Below, in pieces: positions 2,872 to 41,029 of a stretch of DNA of 41,029 nucleotides. This DNA is from Candidatus Uhrbacteria bacterium (GTDB taxonomy: Bacteria > Patescibacteriota > Patescibacteriia > JACQRZ01). The position numbers and the translations under genes are program-made. The stretch is taken from assembly GCA_016206155.1 (NCBI GenBank), contig JACQSC010000003.1, positions 1 to 41,029 of the forward strand, given 5' to 3'. Numbering within the stretch: position 1 is the stretch's first letter; every line of letters starts with the position of its first letter. The notes below the pieces were generated by a model. It saw only the letters and a program-made list of their open reading frames with translations, had not been told where the DNA came from and searched no databases.

Positions 2872-4989
2872 ATGAAAAAAATCATCTCCACGGTCTTGCT
2901 CTTCTCACTGATTTTTGGAACCATTGGGGTTGGCGCACTGCCTGCCAGCGCACAGCCGTTGAACTATGCGACAGTCGATGCGACGGTTTCCTTTTCCGGA
3001 TCGGGCAGGACACTCACCATTCGCGCAGGCAGCACTGCCGACTCTCTGCTGATTGGCACCACCAACATGACGGTGAGCATTTCTTCTGGACAGACATTTA
3101 CTGTTCGGGATACGGGAACGACGAATAGCACCTTTCGCAAGATTGATGTGAGCGATGGCACGACCACCGGGTGCGCGTCTGGCAACGTGGGAAGTGAGGT
3201 AATCATCTCAATTGGAACAGGAACTCGCACGGTTATTATCACGCCCACAGATATCAGCGTCTCCTGTAACGCGGTAGCAGTCGCAGCAGGCGGTGGCGGC
3301 GGAGGCGGTACGACAACGACAACGACCACCACAACAACAGAGCAGACAGCCGAGCAGAAAGCCGCCGCTGATGTTGCGGCAAAGGCAGCGGCAGACAAGA
3401 AAGCCACAGATGAAAAGGTAGCACAGGAGAAAACAGCAGAAGCAACCCTCCAGCCCGTGACCGTAAAAACAGTTGACGTAGCGGTGACCGATACAAAACA
3501 GGTGCAAGACGTTGCAACGGGGGTGACCGCTGCCGACCTTGGCGTTGGGACTGTTACGGCTTCAAACCTAACGGTTAAGAAGACAGGCGAGGCAACGAAA
3601 GAGATAGCAGGAGAAAAACCAACGATAGATAAGCAAATCAAAGCCGCGCTGGAAAAGGATGCTCGTGACGACACCGCAAAAAAAGCGCTTACCGATGTTA
3701 GAAGCGCCGTTTCTCTCGGAAGTCTGAAGGCCCTGCCAACGAGCACAAAGGTTGAGTCATTCACCGTGAGTGACAAGACATCGGGGAAGAGCGTGAGCGT
3801 CTCAAAGGTGAGCCAGAGCGTTCAGGCAAAAGAAACACTGCAAAACGTGAAGATTCTCGTCACCATTCCAAAAGACGTTGCAAAGAGCGCGTCAGAGTTG
3901 ACCTTTCCTGGCCTCAAGCCAACAATTATTCAGGACGACCCGATTGTTGAGTGGACCATTGCCGAGCTGAAGGCGGGTGAGCAGGCAGAGCTTTCCTATC
4001 AAGTAAACAAGAAGATTGAGTCGATTGATACGAAGGTTGTCGCAACCGCATCGGCGCCAATTTCAAAAGAAACAGTGTTTGTATTTAAGGACGGCAAGTT
4101 TGTCGCCGTGAGTAAAGAGGAAGCCGCGCGCATTGAAGCAGAAGCGGCGGCATCCGCCGCCGCTAAAGCTCCGGCGCAACCAGAGGAAAAAGCGCCAATT
4201 TCTGAGAAACAGGAGAAACCGGTGTCCATAGAAGTGCCTTCGCCCCAGGCAGTGGCTGTTGCGCGGGCAAAGCACATCGATGATATCGTAAAGAACGAAG
4301 CGCCGGCATTGGCAAGCGCGCTGAGCGTAGCCGCATTCCTTGAAGCGTTGAACCATGCAACGGGACAGGCGCTTGTACGTAATGAGGCGGCAGAAGACAA
4401 GACGATCTCAGACATTTTGCCAAAGCTCAACATCGACCTCAAGGCGCTCCTTGCGGCGGCGCGGCTCAGCATGGCGGCGGTGACCGATAGTAACGGGAAG
4501 CCCGCTTCTATAGATGGGGCGAGCTTAGAGCGTATCGTTGCATACATCACCTATGGCACGCCGACAACGTTGAAGATTGGCGCCGGCGAGCGCGCGGGCG
4601 TGCTCAACAGCTATATAGCCGCGTGCGGCAAGGTGCCAAGCAAAGAGGGCGAGTGGGCAGACCTTCTCAAGATTGCGGGCGGACGATTCCCTGCCGGCAC
4701 GTGCGATCTGACCAAGGAGCGCGCGGGAGCAAACTTCAAACGCGTGTACAAGCGCGATGCGCGCAAGGAAAACGCGAATGATCAGGCGGCGTTGACGATC
4801 ATGCAGTATGGCCTTTTGCCGGTAAAGGCTGTGAAGGTCGGCGAAGGGGCGGCGGTTGTACCGAACCGCGATACGCAAAAAGAAAAACAAGCAATCCTCG
4901 CATTCAAAAAGATCTTTGGCTACTATCCCTCGACGGCAACGGCATGGAATGTTGTCCGCGCCATAGCATACTCCGGCACGCAAAGGTAA
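2872..4989 (+). CDS. Secreted/surface protein with signal peptide, Thr-rich linker and a C-terminal 'FKKIFGYYPSTATAWNVVRAIAYSGT' module
   Basis: ORF 705 aa; MKKIISTVLLFSLIFGTIGVGALPASAQP signal peptide; GGGGGGGTTTTTTTTTT linker. Confidence 0.75.
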   Translation: MKKIISTVLLFSLIFGTIGVGALPASAQPLNYATVDATVSFSGSGRTLTIRAGSTADSLLIGTTNMTVSISSGQTFTVRDTGTTNSTFRKIDVSDGTTTGCASGNVGSEVIISIGTGTRTVIITPTDISVSCNAVAVAAGGGGGGGTTTTTTTTTTEQTAEQKAAADVAAKAAADKKATDEKVAQEKTAEATLQPVTVKTVDVAVTDTKQVQDVATGVTAADLGVGTVTASNLTVKKTGEATKEIAGEKPTIDKQIKAALEKDARDDTAKKALTDVRSAVSLGSLKALPTSTKVESFTVSDKTSGKSVSVSKVSQSVQAKETLQNVKILVTIPKDVAKSASELTFPGLKPTIIQDDPIVEWTIAELKAGEQAELSYQVNKKIESIDTKVVATASAPISKETVFVFKDGKFVAVSKEEAARIEAEAAASAAAKAPAQPEEKAPISEKQEKPVSIEVPSPQAVAVARAKHIDDIVKNEAPALASALSVAAFLEALNHATGQALVRNEAAEDKTISDILPKLNIDLKALLAAARLSMAAVTDSNGKPASIDGASLERIVAYITYGTPTTLKIGAGERAGVLNSYIAACGKVPSKEGEWADLLKIAGGRFPAGTCDLTKERAGANFKRVYKRDARKENANDQAALTIMQYGLLPVKAVKVGEGAAVVPNRDTQKEKQAILAFKKIFGYYPSTATAWNVVRAIAYSGTQR

Positions 4990-5042: not shown

Positions 5043-5738
5043 ATGGACCTTGCGAACAAGCGACAAACAGTAACCCTTCTTCTTGTGTGGGCCGCTCTTC
5101 TTGCGGCGGCCTGGTTTGCTTCACCCGCGTTTATGCGATCGGCGTTGCGGCTTTCTGCTTCGTTGCCGCATCGCGCAGTGACATCCGAGCTTTCCGTAGA
5201 TGATCGTGCGGCAACGCGAGTCGAGATTAATGATCTTCGCAAAAAGATTTTTTCAAAAAAACAGCAAGGTGATACGAGCGTTACTGACGATGCGCTTGAA
5301 CTGGCAATTCGTTATGAAAAGCTCGGCGCGTACTGGAAGGCAAAGCAGAGTCTTTCGCATATCCTAAAGCGTGAGAGCGCCAATGCTCAGGCATGGATGC
5401 ATCTGTCACGCATCTTCGAGGGACTGACGCTCTATAGCGACGCGGCAGAAGCATGGCGCACAACCATTGAGCTTGATCCAAAAAATCCATCCAACTACGC
5501 GCGGCTCGCCTACGTGCTTGACCGGCGCTTCAACGATAGCTTTAGCGCCAACGGTGTGTATGTTGAGGGCCTGGTGCGCTCCGGCAATACGCCAGAGCTC
5601 ATGCGATCGTATGCCCTGTTTCTTGAACGCATCGGAGAGAAGAACGCAGCCCTGCTCTACTGGAGGGCGTTGTTTGAAAAAGAACCTCAAGACACTTCAA
5701 TTCAGGACCGAATCCGTGATCTGGAGAATACAATGTGA
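5043..5738 (+). CDS. TPR-repeat protein with N-terminal TM helix
   Basis: TPR-like helices: 'ANAQAWMHLSRIFEGLTLYSDAAEAWRTTIELDPKNPSNYARLAYVL'. Confidence 0.75.
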   Translation: MDLANKRQTVTLLLVWAALLAAAWFASPAFMRSALRLSASLPHRAVTSELSVDDRAATRVEINDLRKKIFSKKQQGDTSVTDDALELAIRYEKLGAYWKAKQSLSHILKRESANAQAWMHLSRIFEGLTLYSDAAEAWRTTIELDPKNPSNYARLAYVLDRRFNDSFSANGVYVEGLVRSGNTPELMRSYALFLERIGEKNAALLYWRALFEKEPQDTSIQDRIRDLENTM

Positions 5739-6003: not shown

Positions 6004-8034
6004 ATGAAACGCATTATCCTTGCCGTGATTTTTTTTGTTATTTCCGGGAGCTTGGCGCCCCTTTCTTTTTCTCGTGCTGTCGCAGCCGGCATAACCCCCA
6101 ACGATCCTCTTGTTGGCCGTCAGCGCTATCTTGAGCAAATTGGCGCGCAAGGGGCATGGAGTGTGACAATCGGATCGCCGTCTGTTGTCGTCGCGGTTTT
6201 GGATTCTGGACTCGACATGAACCATCCGGACATTCAAGATGCGCTCTGGACAAACATCGCGGAGATCCCGGGGGATGGCATTGACAATGATGGGAATGGG
6301 TATGTGGATGATATCCGCGGGTGGGACTTCATTAATGACATTCCCGATCCCAACCCAAAGTTTGGCGGCGACTTTCTCTACGCGGGCATTCACCACGGTA
6401 CGCTTATCGCCGGCATCATTGCCGCGCGCGGAAACAACGGTCTTGGCATCGCCGGCATTTCGTGGAAGAGCCGCATTATGCCTCTGCGGGTACTTACCAA
6501 CCAAGGAGAGGGGAACGTGTTTGACGTTGCGCGCGCGATTGATTACGCGATTCAAAAAAAAGCAACCATCATCAATTTAAGTTTTCTCGGAACAGACGAA
6601 AGCGGCTATCTGCGCGGCGCAATCCATCGCGCCATTGATGCGGGCATTGTTGTCATCGCCGCTGCCGGCAACAATGAGGCCGGGAAAAGGGGATTCAATC
6701 TCGATGCGTCTCCGGTGTTCCCCGCGTGTTTTAATAATTCGCTTGACGGTGTGATCGCGGTTGGGTCTATCGATGCGTTGGGCCAGAAAGTTCCCTTCTC
6801 TAATTTTGGTACCTGTATCGACGTTGTCGCACCGGGCCAGGATCTCTACGCGACGCAAGCCGTTAATTATGAACGATTCGGCTTTGACCATTTTTACGGA
6901 GGGGGGTGGTCTGGCACATCGCTTTCAACCGCGATGGTTACGGGCGTTGTTGCGCTCATGAAGGCGGCCAATCCATCGTTGTCGCCCTCAGACATCGCCG
7001 GATTATTCCGGAAGAACTGCGATTCGGTCGATGCCCTTAATCCCAGCTACAAAGGAAAGCTCGGATGTGGGCAATTGAATGCCGCAAAGCTCGTGCGCTC
7101 AGCGCTTGACACCAGAGAGCCGCACAACAGCGGTGCGGGTGCGGCAATCACCATTGCAGGCGCTGACGGAACAGTGCCGGTATCTTTTTTTGATCAAAGG
7201 GGAGTTTCCATAAAGGATAGAAAGCCATTTTTTCCCTTTGCGCCGTTTCGCGTGCCGTATACAATTGGCACATCTTTTCAAAGCGGACTCACGGTTGTCG
7301 CCGCGGGCGCCGGTGGCGGACCACACGTTCGCGTCTTTAATCGAGAGGGCGCGCTTGTGAGCCAATTCTTCGCGTATGATAAGCGATGGCGCATTGGCGC
7401 AGTTGCGGCAATTGGCGATATTGATGGCGATGGAGAGGAAGAGATTGTCACGGCGCCCGCGTCACGGGGAGGCGCGCACGTGAAGATTTTTTCGCTTTCA
7501 GGCATATTTAAGAAAAGCTTCTTTGCCTATTCCAAGGATATGCGTACCGGCTATACGCTGGCTCTTGGCGACATAAACAACGACGGCAAAAAAGATATTG
7601 TGATCTCAGCCGCCGGCGGTGCCGCTGGAGGATCAGTCAAGGTTTTTTCCTGGGAGGGGAGACTCCTGACTCAATTTGTCGCATATCCAAACAGCGCCAT
7701 TGATGAGCTAGCCCTCGCGATTGGCGATGTAAATGGCGATCAAGAAGAAGAGATTGTCGTAGCACCGGCACGAGGACGCGCACCGCTCGCTATTTTTTCA
7801 AAAGCTGGTGTATTGATGCACGCGGCATTTCCGTATGGGCAGGGATATGAGCGCGGCATGTCACTGGCTATTGGCGATGTCGGCGGGAATGGTCGAAATG
7901 AAATCGTCGCAGTTCCGCGCACACGCGCACCGGCGCATGTGCAGATTCTTGACGGGAGCGGCAAGACCGTAGGGACCTTTTTTACTTCATCGCCAGACGT
8001 ACGCACGGGTTTTATCATAACACTTGTTCCATAA
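6004..8034 (+). CDS. Secreted subtilisin-like (S8) serine protease with C-terminal FG-GAP/VCBS-type repeats
   Basis: Asp motif VVVAVLDSGLDMNHPDI, His motif HHGTLIAGIIAA, Ser motif GTSLSTAMVTGVVAL; repeats such as AIGDIDGDGEEEIVTAP, ALGDINNDGKKDIV, AIGDVNGDQEEEIVVAP. Confidence 0.93.
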   Translation: MKRIILAVIFFVISGSLAPLSFSRAVAAGITPNDPLVGRQRYLEQIGAQGAWSVTIGSPSVVVAVLDSGLDMNHPDIQDALWTNIAEIPGDGIDNDGNGYVDDIRGWDFINDIPDPNPKFGGDFLYAGIHHGTLIAGIIAARGNNGLGIAGISWKSRIMPLRVLTNQGEGNVFDVARAIDYAIQKKATIINLSFLGTDESGYLRGAIHRAIDAGIVVIAAAGNNEAGKRGFNLDASPVFPACFNNSLDGVIAVGSIDALGQKVPFSNFGTCIDVVAPGQDLYATQAVNYERFGFDHFYGGGWSGTSLSTAMVTGVVALMKAANPSLSPSDIAGLFRKNCDSVDALNPSYKGKLGCGQLNAAKLVRSALDTREPHNSGAGAAITIAGADGTVPVSFFDQRGVSIKDRKPFFPFAPFRVPYTIGTSFQSGLTVVAAGAGGGPHVRVFNREGALVSQFFAYDKRWRIGAVAAIGDIDGDGEEEIVTAPASRGGAHVKIFSLSGIFKKSFFAYSKDMRTGYTLALGDINNDGKKDIVISAAGGAAGGSVKVFSWEGRLLTQFVAYPNSAIDELALAIGDVNGDQEEEIVVAPARGRAPLAIFSKAGVLMHAAFPYGQGYERGMSLAIGDVGGNGRNEIVAVPRTRAPAHVQILDGSGKTVGTFFTSSPDVRTGFIITLVP

Positions 8035-30096: not shown

Positions 30097-30225
30097 CATG
30101 ATTTCGACAACATCCTTGCTGTTCACAGCAAAAAATCCTCACCGTGAAAATGGTGTCAGTGAAAATGGTGTCAGGAATAGTTTCTGCAAAAACTATTCCT
30201 GACACCATTTTCACCCGAAATCATG
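30097..30225. repeat. Inverted-repeat element: 10-bp outer arms, duplicated GTGAAAATGGTGTCA, 25-bp perfect hairpin
   Basis: CATGATTTCG (30097-30106)/CGAAATCATG (30216-30225); direct repeats 30144-30158 and 30159-30173; hairpin 30159-30183/30190-30214. Confidence 0.85.
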
Positions 30226-37030: not shown

Positions 37031-37762
37031 ATGAAATACATCTTGGGGAAAAAGCTAAACATGACACAGGTCCATACCGACAGCGGTATGGTTGTTCCTG
37101 TTACGGTTGTAAAAGCGGGCCCCTGTGTCGTATCCCAGGTGAAAACAACAGACAGGGATGGGTATAACGCAATTCAATTTTGTTTTGGAGAGAAGAAGAA
37201 AGCGCACAAGCCCCAAAAACAACAGTGTGCCGGATTGCCGGGGATTACAAAAAATCATGGGGCGGCATTGGTCAGGGAGGTACGCGTATCCGCGCCACTC
37301 GAGCATGCAAAGCGCGGTTCGGTTGTGTCTGTAAAAAGTTTTGTTCCGGGAGATCATATTTCCGTTACGGGTGTATCAAAGGGGCGAGGATTTGCTGGCG
37401 TTGTAAAGCGCCATCACTTTCATGGCCATCCGACAACTCACGGCCACAAGGATCAAGAGCGTATGCCCGGTTCAATCGGTTCTGGCGGTGTGCAGCATGT
37501 GTTCAGGGGCCAGCGTATGGCAGGCCGTCTTGGCGGTGAACAGGTTACTGTTCACAATCTTGAAATTATTGCAGTTGATGAGGAGAATGGCCTTCTCCAT
37601 GTGAAGGGCGCGCTTCCCGGCAGCCGCAATGGTTTTGTTGCGCTTTTCTCGAAAGAAGGGGAAGTGGCCTTTGAAGAGGGTCCTGCCGAACTAACTCATG
37701 AGCAAACTCATGAGCAAACTCCTGAGGAAATTTCTGAAAAACCCATAACCCCTAACCCCTGA
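37031..37762 (+). CDS. rplC: Ribosomal protein uL3 with C-terminal extension
   Basis: MKYILGKKLNMTQV..GRGFAGVVKRHHFHGHPTTHGHKDQERMPGSIG; tail THEQTHEQTPEEISEKPITPNP. Confidence 0.97.
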   Translation: MKYILGKKLNMTQVHTDSGMVVPVTVVKAGPCVVSQVKTTDRDGYNAIQFCFGEKKKAHKPQKQQCAGLPGITKNHGAALVREVRVSAPLEHAKRGSVVSVKSFVPGDHISVTGVSKGRGFAGVVKRHHFHGHPTTHGHKDQERMPGSIGSGGVQHVFRGQRMAGRLGGEQVTVHNLEIIAVDEENGLLHVKGALPGSRNGFVALFSKEGEVAFEEGPAELTHEQTHEQTPEEISEKPITPNP

Positions 37763-38889: not shown

Positions 38890-38892
38890 TCT

Positions 38893-39032
38893 ATGCCCCG
38901 CACTTAACTACGATTGCTGCCACTCATCATCCATCATATGAAACAAGATAAACACATATTATTCATTATCTCTCCGATCTCCCGTGCTGACGTGTCGCAG
39001 CACGAGGATGATCGTAGTTAAGTGCGGGGTAT
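38893..39032 (+). repeat. 140-nt intergenic element, copy 1 (22-nt terminal inverted arms)
   Basis: ATGCCCCGCACTTAACTACGAT (38893-38914) / ATCGTAGTTAAGTGCGGGGTAT (39011-39032). Confidence 0.95.
38938..39021 (+). CDS. 27-aa ORF inside element copy 1
   Basis: MKQDKHILFIISPISRADVSQHEDDRS*, in frame with rplB, TAA 9 nt before its ATG. Confidence 0.5.
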   Translation: MKQDKHILFIISPISRADVSQHEDDRS

Positions 39033-39870
39033 GGCCGTAAAAATATACAAACCAACCAGCCCCGGAAGACGCAAGTCAAGCGTTGGTGATTTTAGCATGC
39101 TGACAAAAAAGCGGCCCGAGCGCTCTCTTATCGTTATCAAGAAGAAAACGGGCGGCCGCAATAACCAGGGAAAAATTACCACGCGCCATCGCGGCGGCGG
39201 AACCAAGAGGTATTATCGCATTATTGATTTTGCCCGTCGCACGCATGACGTGCCGGCGCGTGTTATTTCCCTTGAATATGATCCTAATCGCAGCGCCAAC
39301 ATCGCGCTGATTGAATATGAAGGCGGTGTTCGCTCCTATATCATTGCGCCACAGGATCTCAATGTCGGCGATACGATTGTTTCATCGCAAAAGAAGCAGG
39401 ATATTGTTCCGGGTAATCGTTTGTGCCTCAACAACATTCCGGTTGGAACATTTATCCACGCATTGGAGATTACGCCCGGGAGGGGAGCGCAAATGATTCG
39501 TTCTGCCGGTGTGTTTGCTCAACTGATGGCGATCGACGGTGATACGGCGCACGTGCGGCTTCCTTCAGGGGAGGTGCGCCTCTTCCGAGTTTCGTGTATG
39601 GCAACGATCGGCCAAGTAGGAAATAGCGACCATCAGCATATTCGCCTTGGAAAAGCTGGCCGCCGCCGCCATCTTGGATGGCGTCCATCGGTTCGCGGTA
39701 AGGCGATGAATCCTGTTGATCACCCCCACGGCGGCGGAGAAGGCAATCAGCCAATCGGTATGAAGGGACCCAAGACTCCGTCGGGTCGTCCTGCGCTGGG
39801 CTTGCGCACACGCAAGAAAAAGAAGTATTCAAATAGCTTGATTCTTAAACGCCGGTCGAAGAAACGATAA
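39031..39870 (+). CDS. rplB: Ribosomal protein uL2
   Basis: MAVKIYKPTSPGRRKSSVGDF..GGRNNQGKITTRHRGGGTKRYYR..NPVDHPHGGGEG. ATG 39031; GTG 39022 is the alternative. Confidence 0.97.
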   Translation: MAVKIYKPTSPGRRKSSVGDFSMLTKKRPERSLIVIKKKTGGRNNQGKITTRHRGGGTKRYYRIIDFARRTHDVPARVISLEYDPNRSANIALIEYEGGVRSYIIAPQDLNVGDTIVSSQKKQDIVPGNRLCLNNIPVGTFIHALEITPGRGAQMIRSAGVFAQLMAIDGDTAHVRLPSGEVRLFRVSCMATIGQVGNSDHQHIRLGKAGRRRHLGWRPSVRGKAMNPVDHPHGGGEGNQPIGMKGPKTPSGRPALGLRTRKKKKYSNSLILKRRSKKR

Positions 39871-39873
39871 TAT

Positions 39874-40013
39874 ATGCCCCGCACTTAACTCCGATTGCTG
39901 CTATTAATCATCCGTCCTATGATATATACTACACACAATTTATTCATCATCACTTCGATTTCCTCTGCTGCCGTGTCGCAGCATGAGGATGATCGGAGTT
40001 AAGTGCGGGGTAT
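39874..40013 (+). repeat. 140-nt intergenic element, copy 2
   Basis: ATGCCCCGCACTTAACTCCGAT (39874-39895) / ATCGGAGTTAAGTGCGGGGTAT (39992-40013). Confidence 0.95.
39919..40002 (+). CDS. 27-aa ORF inside element copy 2
   Basis: MIYTTHNLFIITSISSAAVSQHEDDRS*, in frame with rpsS, TAA 9 nt before its ATG. Confidence 0.5.
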   Translation: MIYTTHNLFIITSISSAAVSQHEDDRS

Positions 40014-40341
40014 GTCACGAAGTTTGAAAAAAGGACCCTATGTTGATCCGCGGCTGCTTGCAAAAGTTGCCAAATTGACCGTTGGCGAAAAAACGGTGAT
40101 AAAGACATGGTCGCGTGCTTGCGTTATTACTCCTGAGATGGTTGGCTTTACATTCGGCGTCCATAATGGTAAATTGCATCTTCTCGTGACGGTTACCGAG
40201 AATATGGTTGGCCATAAGCTTGGTGAGTTTTCCCCAACGCGAAAGTTTACGCGGCATGGAGGGAAGATGGCAAAAGAGCAAGAAAAAGCAAAGGAAGCGC
40301 CACCCGCGCCCGCCGCCGCTCCTGCCCAGAAAAAGAAGTAG
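40012..40341 (+). CDS. rpsS: Ribosomal protein uS19 with Lys/Ala/Pro-rich C-terminal tail
   Basis: [52 protein letters not shown]. Confidence 0.96.
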
Positions 40342-40984: not shown

Positions 40985-41019
40985 TAACCCCTAACCCCTA
41001 ACCCCTAACCCCTAACCCC
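40985..41019. repeat. Heptamer tandem repeat (TAACCCC)x5
   Basis: Direct reading at the end of the window, 42 nt after the rplV stop. Confidence 0.95.
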
Positions 41020-41029
41020 AGTATGGGTC

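Follow-up and report, generated by a model that had tools for sequence, protein, structure and literature searches.

A palindromic MITE-like element at the start codons of unrelated genes in a patescibacterial genome

Short palindromic repeats of bacterial genomes are known in several forms. The prokaryotic MITEs ERIC, Correia and QMITE2 (PMC10969869) are short and dispersed, carry terminal inverted repeats and target duplications, give transcripts that fold into stable stem-loops, and occasionally contain small ORFs; all this they have in common with the element described here. A further parallel is provided by the Rickettsia palindromic elements (RPEs), palindromes of about 100-150 nt that are spread through the genes of a reduced genome in a manner compatible with expression. 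The REP sequences associated with RAYT (PMC3733652) are likewise repeated palindromes present in many copies. In CPR bacteria, the GIY-YIG proteins encoded within rRNA genes were all found in insertions that resemble neither intron type and that seemingly stand outside spread by homing, and many uncharacterised insertions in these genes are shorter than 200 bp (PMC11270868); that study concerns rRNA genes only, and its main text says nothing of inverted or palindromic repeats. What it shares with the present case is the occurrence of non-intron GIY-YIG insertions in the same bacterial group. Finally, models of translational coupling by unfolding and by reinitiation, and short ORFs that deliver ribosomes to a following gene, have been reviewed (PMC12548453). 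Coupled gene pairs and delivering uORFs of this kind have a structured start codon that is opened by translation of an upstream ORF, with a stop near the next start, and the arrangement that we propose for the locus analysed here resembles it.

Two copies of the element at rplB and rpsS

The window, i.e., the whole stretch of 41,029 nt that was analysed, contains two copies of the element in consecutive spacers of the S10 operon, all of whose features described below lie on the forward strand. Copy 1 (38896-39029) is 134 nt long, begins with CCCCG and ends with CGGGG, and precedes rplB (39031-39870; ribosomal protein L2, Pfam PF00181/PF03947). Its left arm, CCCCGCACTTAACTACGAT, occupies positions 38896-38914, and its right arm, ATCGTAGTTAAGTGCGGGG, positions 39011-39029. 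The sequence and a scan for 4-bp duplications revealed a TATG direct repeat on either side, at 38892-38895 and 39030-39033, and the ATG of the latter (39031-39033) is the rplB start codon. Between the arms, an ORF of 27 codons with a start in the TATG context (38938-39021; MKQDKHILFIISPISRADVSQHEDDRS) runs into the right arm, where it ends with TAA 9 nt upstream of the rplB ATG. Copy 2 (39877-40010, also 134 nt) is arranged in the same way in front of rpsS (40012-40341; ribosomal protein S19, Pfam PF00203): it is flanked by TATG at 39873-39876 and 40011-40014, the ATG at 40012-40014 is the rpsS start codon, and the internal ORF (39919-40002; MIYTTHNLFIITSISSAAVSQHEDDRS) ends with TAA 9 nt before it.

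The initial annotation had described these copies as two gapless elements of 140 nt, and it placed them correctly; over these 140 nt, they are 84% identical without a gap. It was also right about the matched change in the arms (A38910/T39015 in one copy versus C39891/G39996 in the other, A-T to C-G) and about the conservation of the inner TGCTGC/GCAGCA pairing. The arms of 22 nt that it proposed do pair along their full length, but the G.U pair that it regarded as conserved belongs to the TATG direct repeat, whose two copies, outermost in the stem, can pair with each other solely through G.U wobbles. As the outer TATG is a direct repeat, the element proper is the 134-nt CCCCG...CGGGG unit. Its transcripts are predicted to fold with energies of -57.6 (z = -8.4) and -60.5 kcal/mol (z = -7.8), compared with means of about -29 and -30 kcal/mol for dinucleotide-shuffled sequences, of which none out of 200 folded as well as either copy. 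A search of the window against Rfam returned two tRNAs only and no match to a curated riboswitch or leader family at the gathering score.

Other repeats were seen in the window as well, namely a GTGAAAATGGTGTCAGGAATAGTTT palindrome at 30159-30214, which is one of several REP-like copies dispersed in the genome, and tandem-like AACCCCT repeats at places where genes join (37740-37762 and 40986-41020).

Distribution in the host genome and among relatives

The account based on two copies proved to be real but incomplete. A search of the whole assembly of the host genome (913,686 bp in 10 contigs, ~94% complete) identified 14 copies, and an exact-arm scan of ~99.5% of the assembly found no additional ones. 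In all 14, the right end, ...TTAAGTGCGGGGTATG or a near variant of it, is joined directly to the start codon of a co-oriented gene. The downstream genes are rplB, rpsS, rpsN, rpmC, scpB, rpiB, ftsX and ruvA, with Pfam support, rplF, ftsA and the genes of a Clp-type ATPase and an ABC transporter, which were identified from the translation alone, and two more that are unnamed; genes of ribosomal proteins make up 5 of the 14. A simple ORF-based count gave 6840 TATG sites in this genome, comprising 513 ORF starts, 742 intergenic sites that are not starts and 5585 coding sites. If only insertions at starts and intergenic sites survive, the probability of finding 14 of 14 copies at starts is ~4e-6, and no copy was found on any of the 742 intergenic non-start sites. 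As the terminal repeats are symmetrical, the common orientation of all copies also wants an explanation.

Inverted repeats with arms of 14-21 nt terminate nearly every copy. Over the 14 copies, 96.1% of stem cells pair, and six stem pairs show two-sided changes, in 20 cells versus 5.6 expected from shuffles; in a sliding-partner control the covariation signal was lost. The covariation proposed from two copies thus holds over the whole family. The pairing of the stem is maintained by a function of the RNA or of the DNA, and the data fit both; the arms can remain complementary because both ends need to be recognised as DNA. Hairpins with CCCCG-type arms number 18 in the host genome and 4 in its reversed-sequence control. 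At one contig end (C1:9-141, 4548-4676, 5420-5548 and 7354-7484), the host genome also carries ATAACGTCCGCGCCTA palindromes spaced by 0.9-4.5 kb, which are possibly recombination sites of a cassette array.

When ten genomes of the same family were searched with a covariance model of the 14 copies, there was no match, and members of the same element family were found in none of 144 genomes; genome G042 has a related one. In those same-family relatives whose junction could be read, rplB starts directly after the spacer, usually as TATG, without the element, and the same is true of rpsS. Other genomes of the class contain related families with CCCCG...CGGGG ends, unlike arms and 4-bp target-site duplications; in this superfamily the duplicated tetramer is TATG at start codons and other tetramers elsewhere. 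The pattern CCCCG-N(112-142)-CGGGGTATG occurs in 28 of the 381 genomes of the class and is repeated in a few of them (25, 13, 10, 10, 5, 5 and 4 matches, versus 0-2 per genome when read backwards); outside the class there were single matches, which equals the control level, and two look-alikes. An unbiased hairpin scan of G042 (611 kb) gave 91 calls, some of them overlapping, versus 1 in the reversed sequence. Many of these hairpins are flanked by exact 4-bp repeats (TATG, TAAA, TTTA, TTCA, TGAA, TCTA, TAGA, TCAA, TCCA, TTGA, TGTG and CCAG), and several insertions, the one at rplB among them, are missing from the orthologous TATG start codons of a genome of the same genus. Taken together, target-site duplications and empty sites argue for a mobile element, and with its terminal inverted repeats, target duplication, and dispersed, multicopy and lineage-variable occurrence, the element corresponds in structure to a MITE and is presumably mobile.

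In the host family itself, TATG flanks most copies; TATGA is found on both sides of copy c14, and the 5' repeat is missing in c04 and c09. As these are its only flanks, duplication in this family is argued from the superfamily; its TATG repeat could in principle belong to the element itself, and only c14 speaks directly to this point.

Several relatives lie at other kinds of sites. A superfamily element at G042 C6:15856-15968 is seemingly in frame and free of stops in the part of an apparent ligA gene that encodes a zinc finger. CCCCG/TCCCG-type hairpins at L056:5015-5139 and G042 C17:5248-5352 surround a complete tRNA gene and themselves split another, apparently broken tRNA, and an exact-arm scan of GTDB hit a single contig, on which a tRNA-Gly gene lies inside the hairpin. 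Two elements (G042 C4:224-460 and C4:65462-65666) lie directly 3' of CIRCE-like operators and 5' of apparent hrcA and clpB. A virus-borne origin was considered and rejected, as exact arm patterns in IMG/VR gave chance coding matches or nothing. A search confined to the open-access literature, with subscription papers outside its scope, found no description of such elements.

Internal ORF, GIY-YIG relatives and start signal

In 13 of the 14 copies, an internal TATG opens an ORF of 26-27 codons, whose TAA stop lies in the right arm, 9 nt upstream of the gene ATG; in c08, the internal ORF overlaps this ATG as ATGA. The stop of the CCCCGTTAGAA family is a TAA 6 nt upstream of the gene ATG, and across the superfamily it lies 6-12 nt upstream of the host gene ATG or overlaps it, as is found in translationally coupled units. 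Among 35 element clusters from many genomes, which are not fully independent, 25 have a uORF of at least 13 codons, where 6.3 would be expected from dinucleotide-shuffled loops (P < 1e-5); the other 10 lack one. T precedes the ATG in 22 of the 25 uORF starts, and in 9 of 45 other internal ATGs. The same T at -1 is found in 63% (host genome) and 60% (G042) of long ATG-started ORFs genome-wide, while SD-like motifs in the host genome precede 12% of starts versus 13% of any ATG, i.e., they are not enriched. The starts thus carry a UAUG, SD-poor signal, although the apparent 16S gene ends in an intact anti-SD (CCTCCTTTCT). The uORF peptides have a pN/pS of 0.75 and no third-position excess, so that a function of the peptide is unlikely, and yet the frame remains open. 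An open frame with a drifting peptide fits selection for being translated, not for the product. SD-mediated bridging over the closed hairpin was rejected as a general mechanism, because a clear upstream SD is present only in c05 (AGGAGG) and c04 (GGGAGG).

A longer relative at G042 C13:7615-7899 (285 nt, TATG on both flanks) contains a single ORF, which encodes a GIY-YIG protein (Pfam PF01541, E 2e-14) and stops 8 nt before the end of the element, as in the short elements. Relatives of this type measure 275-344 nt and encode one GIY-YIG nuclease of ~85 aa with its stop in or adjoining the right repeat. Of the ~29 GIY-YIG loci that were examined after a search with this ORF, 13, in several genomes, are enclosed by inverted repeats with the superfamily ends and flanked by direct repeats, compared with 1 of 113 control windows. 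Judging from this organisation, the GIY-YIG-bearing repeats are likely full-length elements and their nuclease is likely the mobility enzyme, which would then carry out transposition; the short elements look like internal-deletion or parallel derivatives of them. No GIY-YIG element bounded by exactly the termini of the host family was found in the 99.5% of the ~94% complete host assembly that was scanned. Two further GIY-YIG loci were observed: in the host genome, C1:25783-26013 is a GIY-YIG ORF between duplicated tRNA pieces, outside CCCCG repeats, and at L180 a GIY-YIG version of the element lies within the TGCTAA of a CIRCE-like operator.

Interpretation and comparison with known systems

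We consider it probable that the element is a transposable palindrome which inserts at UAUG starts and brings a translational relay along. A non-autonomous palindromic element with CCCCG...CGGGG ends would insert with a 4-bp target duplication, and the host family would occupy TATG, the normal start motif of its host (T at -1, no SD enrichment), so that the duplication would leave an intact TATG ahead of the gene. The steps that follow insertion we infer to be these: the transcript would fold so that a stem of ~20 bp hides the start codon of the gene, a ribosome would enter at the UAUG in the loop, translate the short ORF through the 3' arm and melt the stem, and, as this ORF stops 6-12 nt before the gene AUG or overlaps it, would be passed on to the gene by translational coupling. 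The probable full-length relatives have the ~85-aa GIY-YIG nuclease in the position of the short ORF.

The same elements might instead be plain MITEs that hit many TATG sites in a compact genome in which only the insertions that spared genes were kept, the uORF being a relic of the nuclease ORF without a role and the stem being the ends recognised by a transposase. Target duplications of several sequences, the presence of elements at stop-codon-like TAAA and intergenic sites too, and the common end point of uORF and nuclease ORF (-8 in both) fit this reading. It does not explain why the intergenic non-start TATG sites of the host genome are all empty, why symmetrical ends gave one orientation throughout, or why the peptide drifted in frames that stayed open and kept their T(-1)ATG start, and we regard it as rather unlikely. 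The initial annotation had named a MITE-like repeat as its main alternative; this was closer to the truth than its preferred reading, except that the random sites and orientations of a MITE were not seen.

That preferred reading, a cis-acting RNA controlling the translation of L2 and S19, is supported in so far as an arrangement around the start codon bears on translation, but not as a dedicated regulator of the S10 operon: the copies precede 14 functionally unrelated genes, the superfamily has target-site duplications, and in the ten same-family genomes the element is absent and the orthologous rplB and rpsS sites, where readable, are empty. A broader version, in which a structured leader, protein-bound or responsive to a signal, was domesticated to coordinate a translation and division regulon, could draw on the covarying stem, the conserved inner helices and the share of ribosomal proteins among the genes; we find it improbable given the mixed functions of its targets, the lack of an Rfam match, its absence from the ten relatives, and the unrelated arms and loops of related elements elsewhere. 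Least probable of all, by a little, is a hairpin acting mainly at the level of the mRNA, where RNase III would cut it or it would stabilise the transcript, with a processed end near UAUG that would allow nearly leaderless AUG initiation. The stem is indeed long and perfect, some copies have a promoter-like -10 box close upstream (e.g., ctatactattttaTATG at c07), and the hosts show no Shine-Dalgarno enrichment, but the excess of uORFs would be left unexplained.

If the relay on UAUG starts is real, a transposon persists in one of the most compact bacterial genomes by landing on start codons and bringing its own means of passing ribosomes on, and attention would be drawn to a UAUG, SD-poor start signal in Patescibacteria. 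More tentatively, with the odds somewhat against it, the superfamily may constitute a class of minimal transposable elements: a palindrome of ~280 nt with a ~85-aa GIY-YIG nuclease as its sole protein, which moves with a 4-bp target duplication, lacks a known transposase and is adapted to the UAUG starts of SD-poor Patescibacteria, and whose non-autonomous derivatives serve essential genes as portable translational relays. It would then stand as a candidate among the smallest autonomous mobile elements, with GIY-YIG as the sole enzyme, and would suggest where the short and GIY-YIG insertions in CPR rRNA genes, so far unexplained, come from. In G042, the 530 loop of a 16S rRNA gene carries an element of 101 nt flanked by duplicated CCAG (C19:26262-26362), directly downstream of what seems to be the 3' end of a group I intron; the rRNA should need either to lose this element or to tolerate it. 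It is plausible that the present elements are a source of the insertions in CPR rRNA genes. What is added here to the earlier survey (PMC11270868) is the repeats, their target duplications, the sites at start codons and the non-autonomous derivatives.

The REPs measure 20-40 bp and carry GTAG or CGTC as a tag, in contrast to this superfamily, whose members are 100-300 nt long, have CCCCG ends and are flanked by target duplications; the 134-nt element is not a REP. Nor does it behave as a leader of ribosomal protein genes, which would be conserved before orthologous genes: ten same-family genomes are without a model match, and the readable junctions are empty. RPEs fuse in frame within coding regions, as the relative in ligA at C6:15856 seems to do, whereas the host element terminates the ORF that it carries and spares the start codon of the host gene, all 14 copies lying at start codons and outside ORFs. 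Unlike coupled gene pairs, the coupling unit here would be mobile and inserted afresh upstream of unrelated genes. In contrast to known MITEs, every copy of the host family coincides exactly with a start codon and all have the same orientation, and the full-length members of the superfamily encode only a GIY-YIG nuclease and no known transposase. The element is thus best described as a variant on the known MITE-like kind, with a real chance that it represents a new class of GIY-YIG mobile elements.
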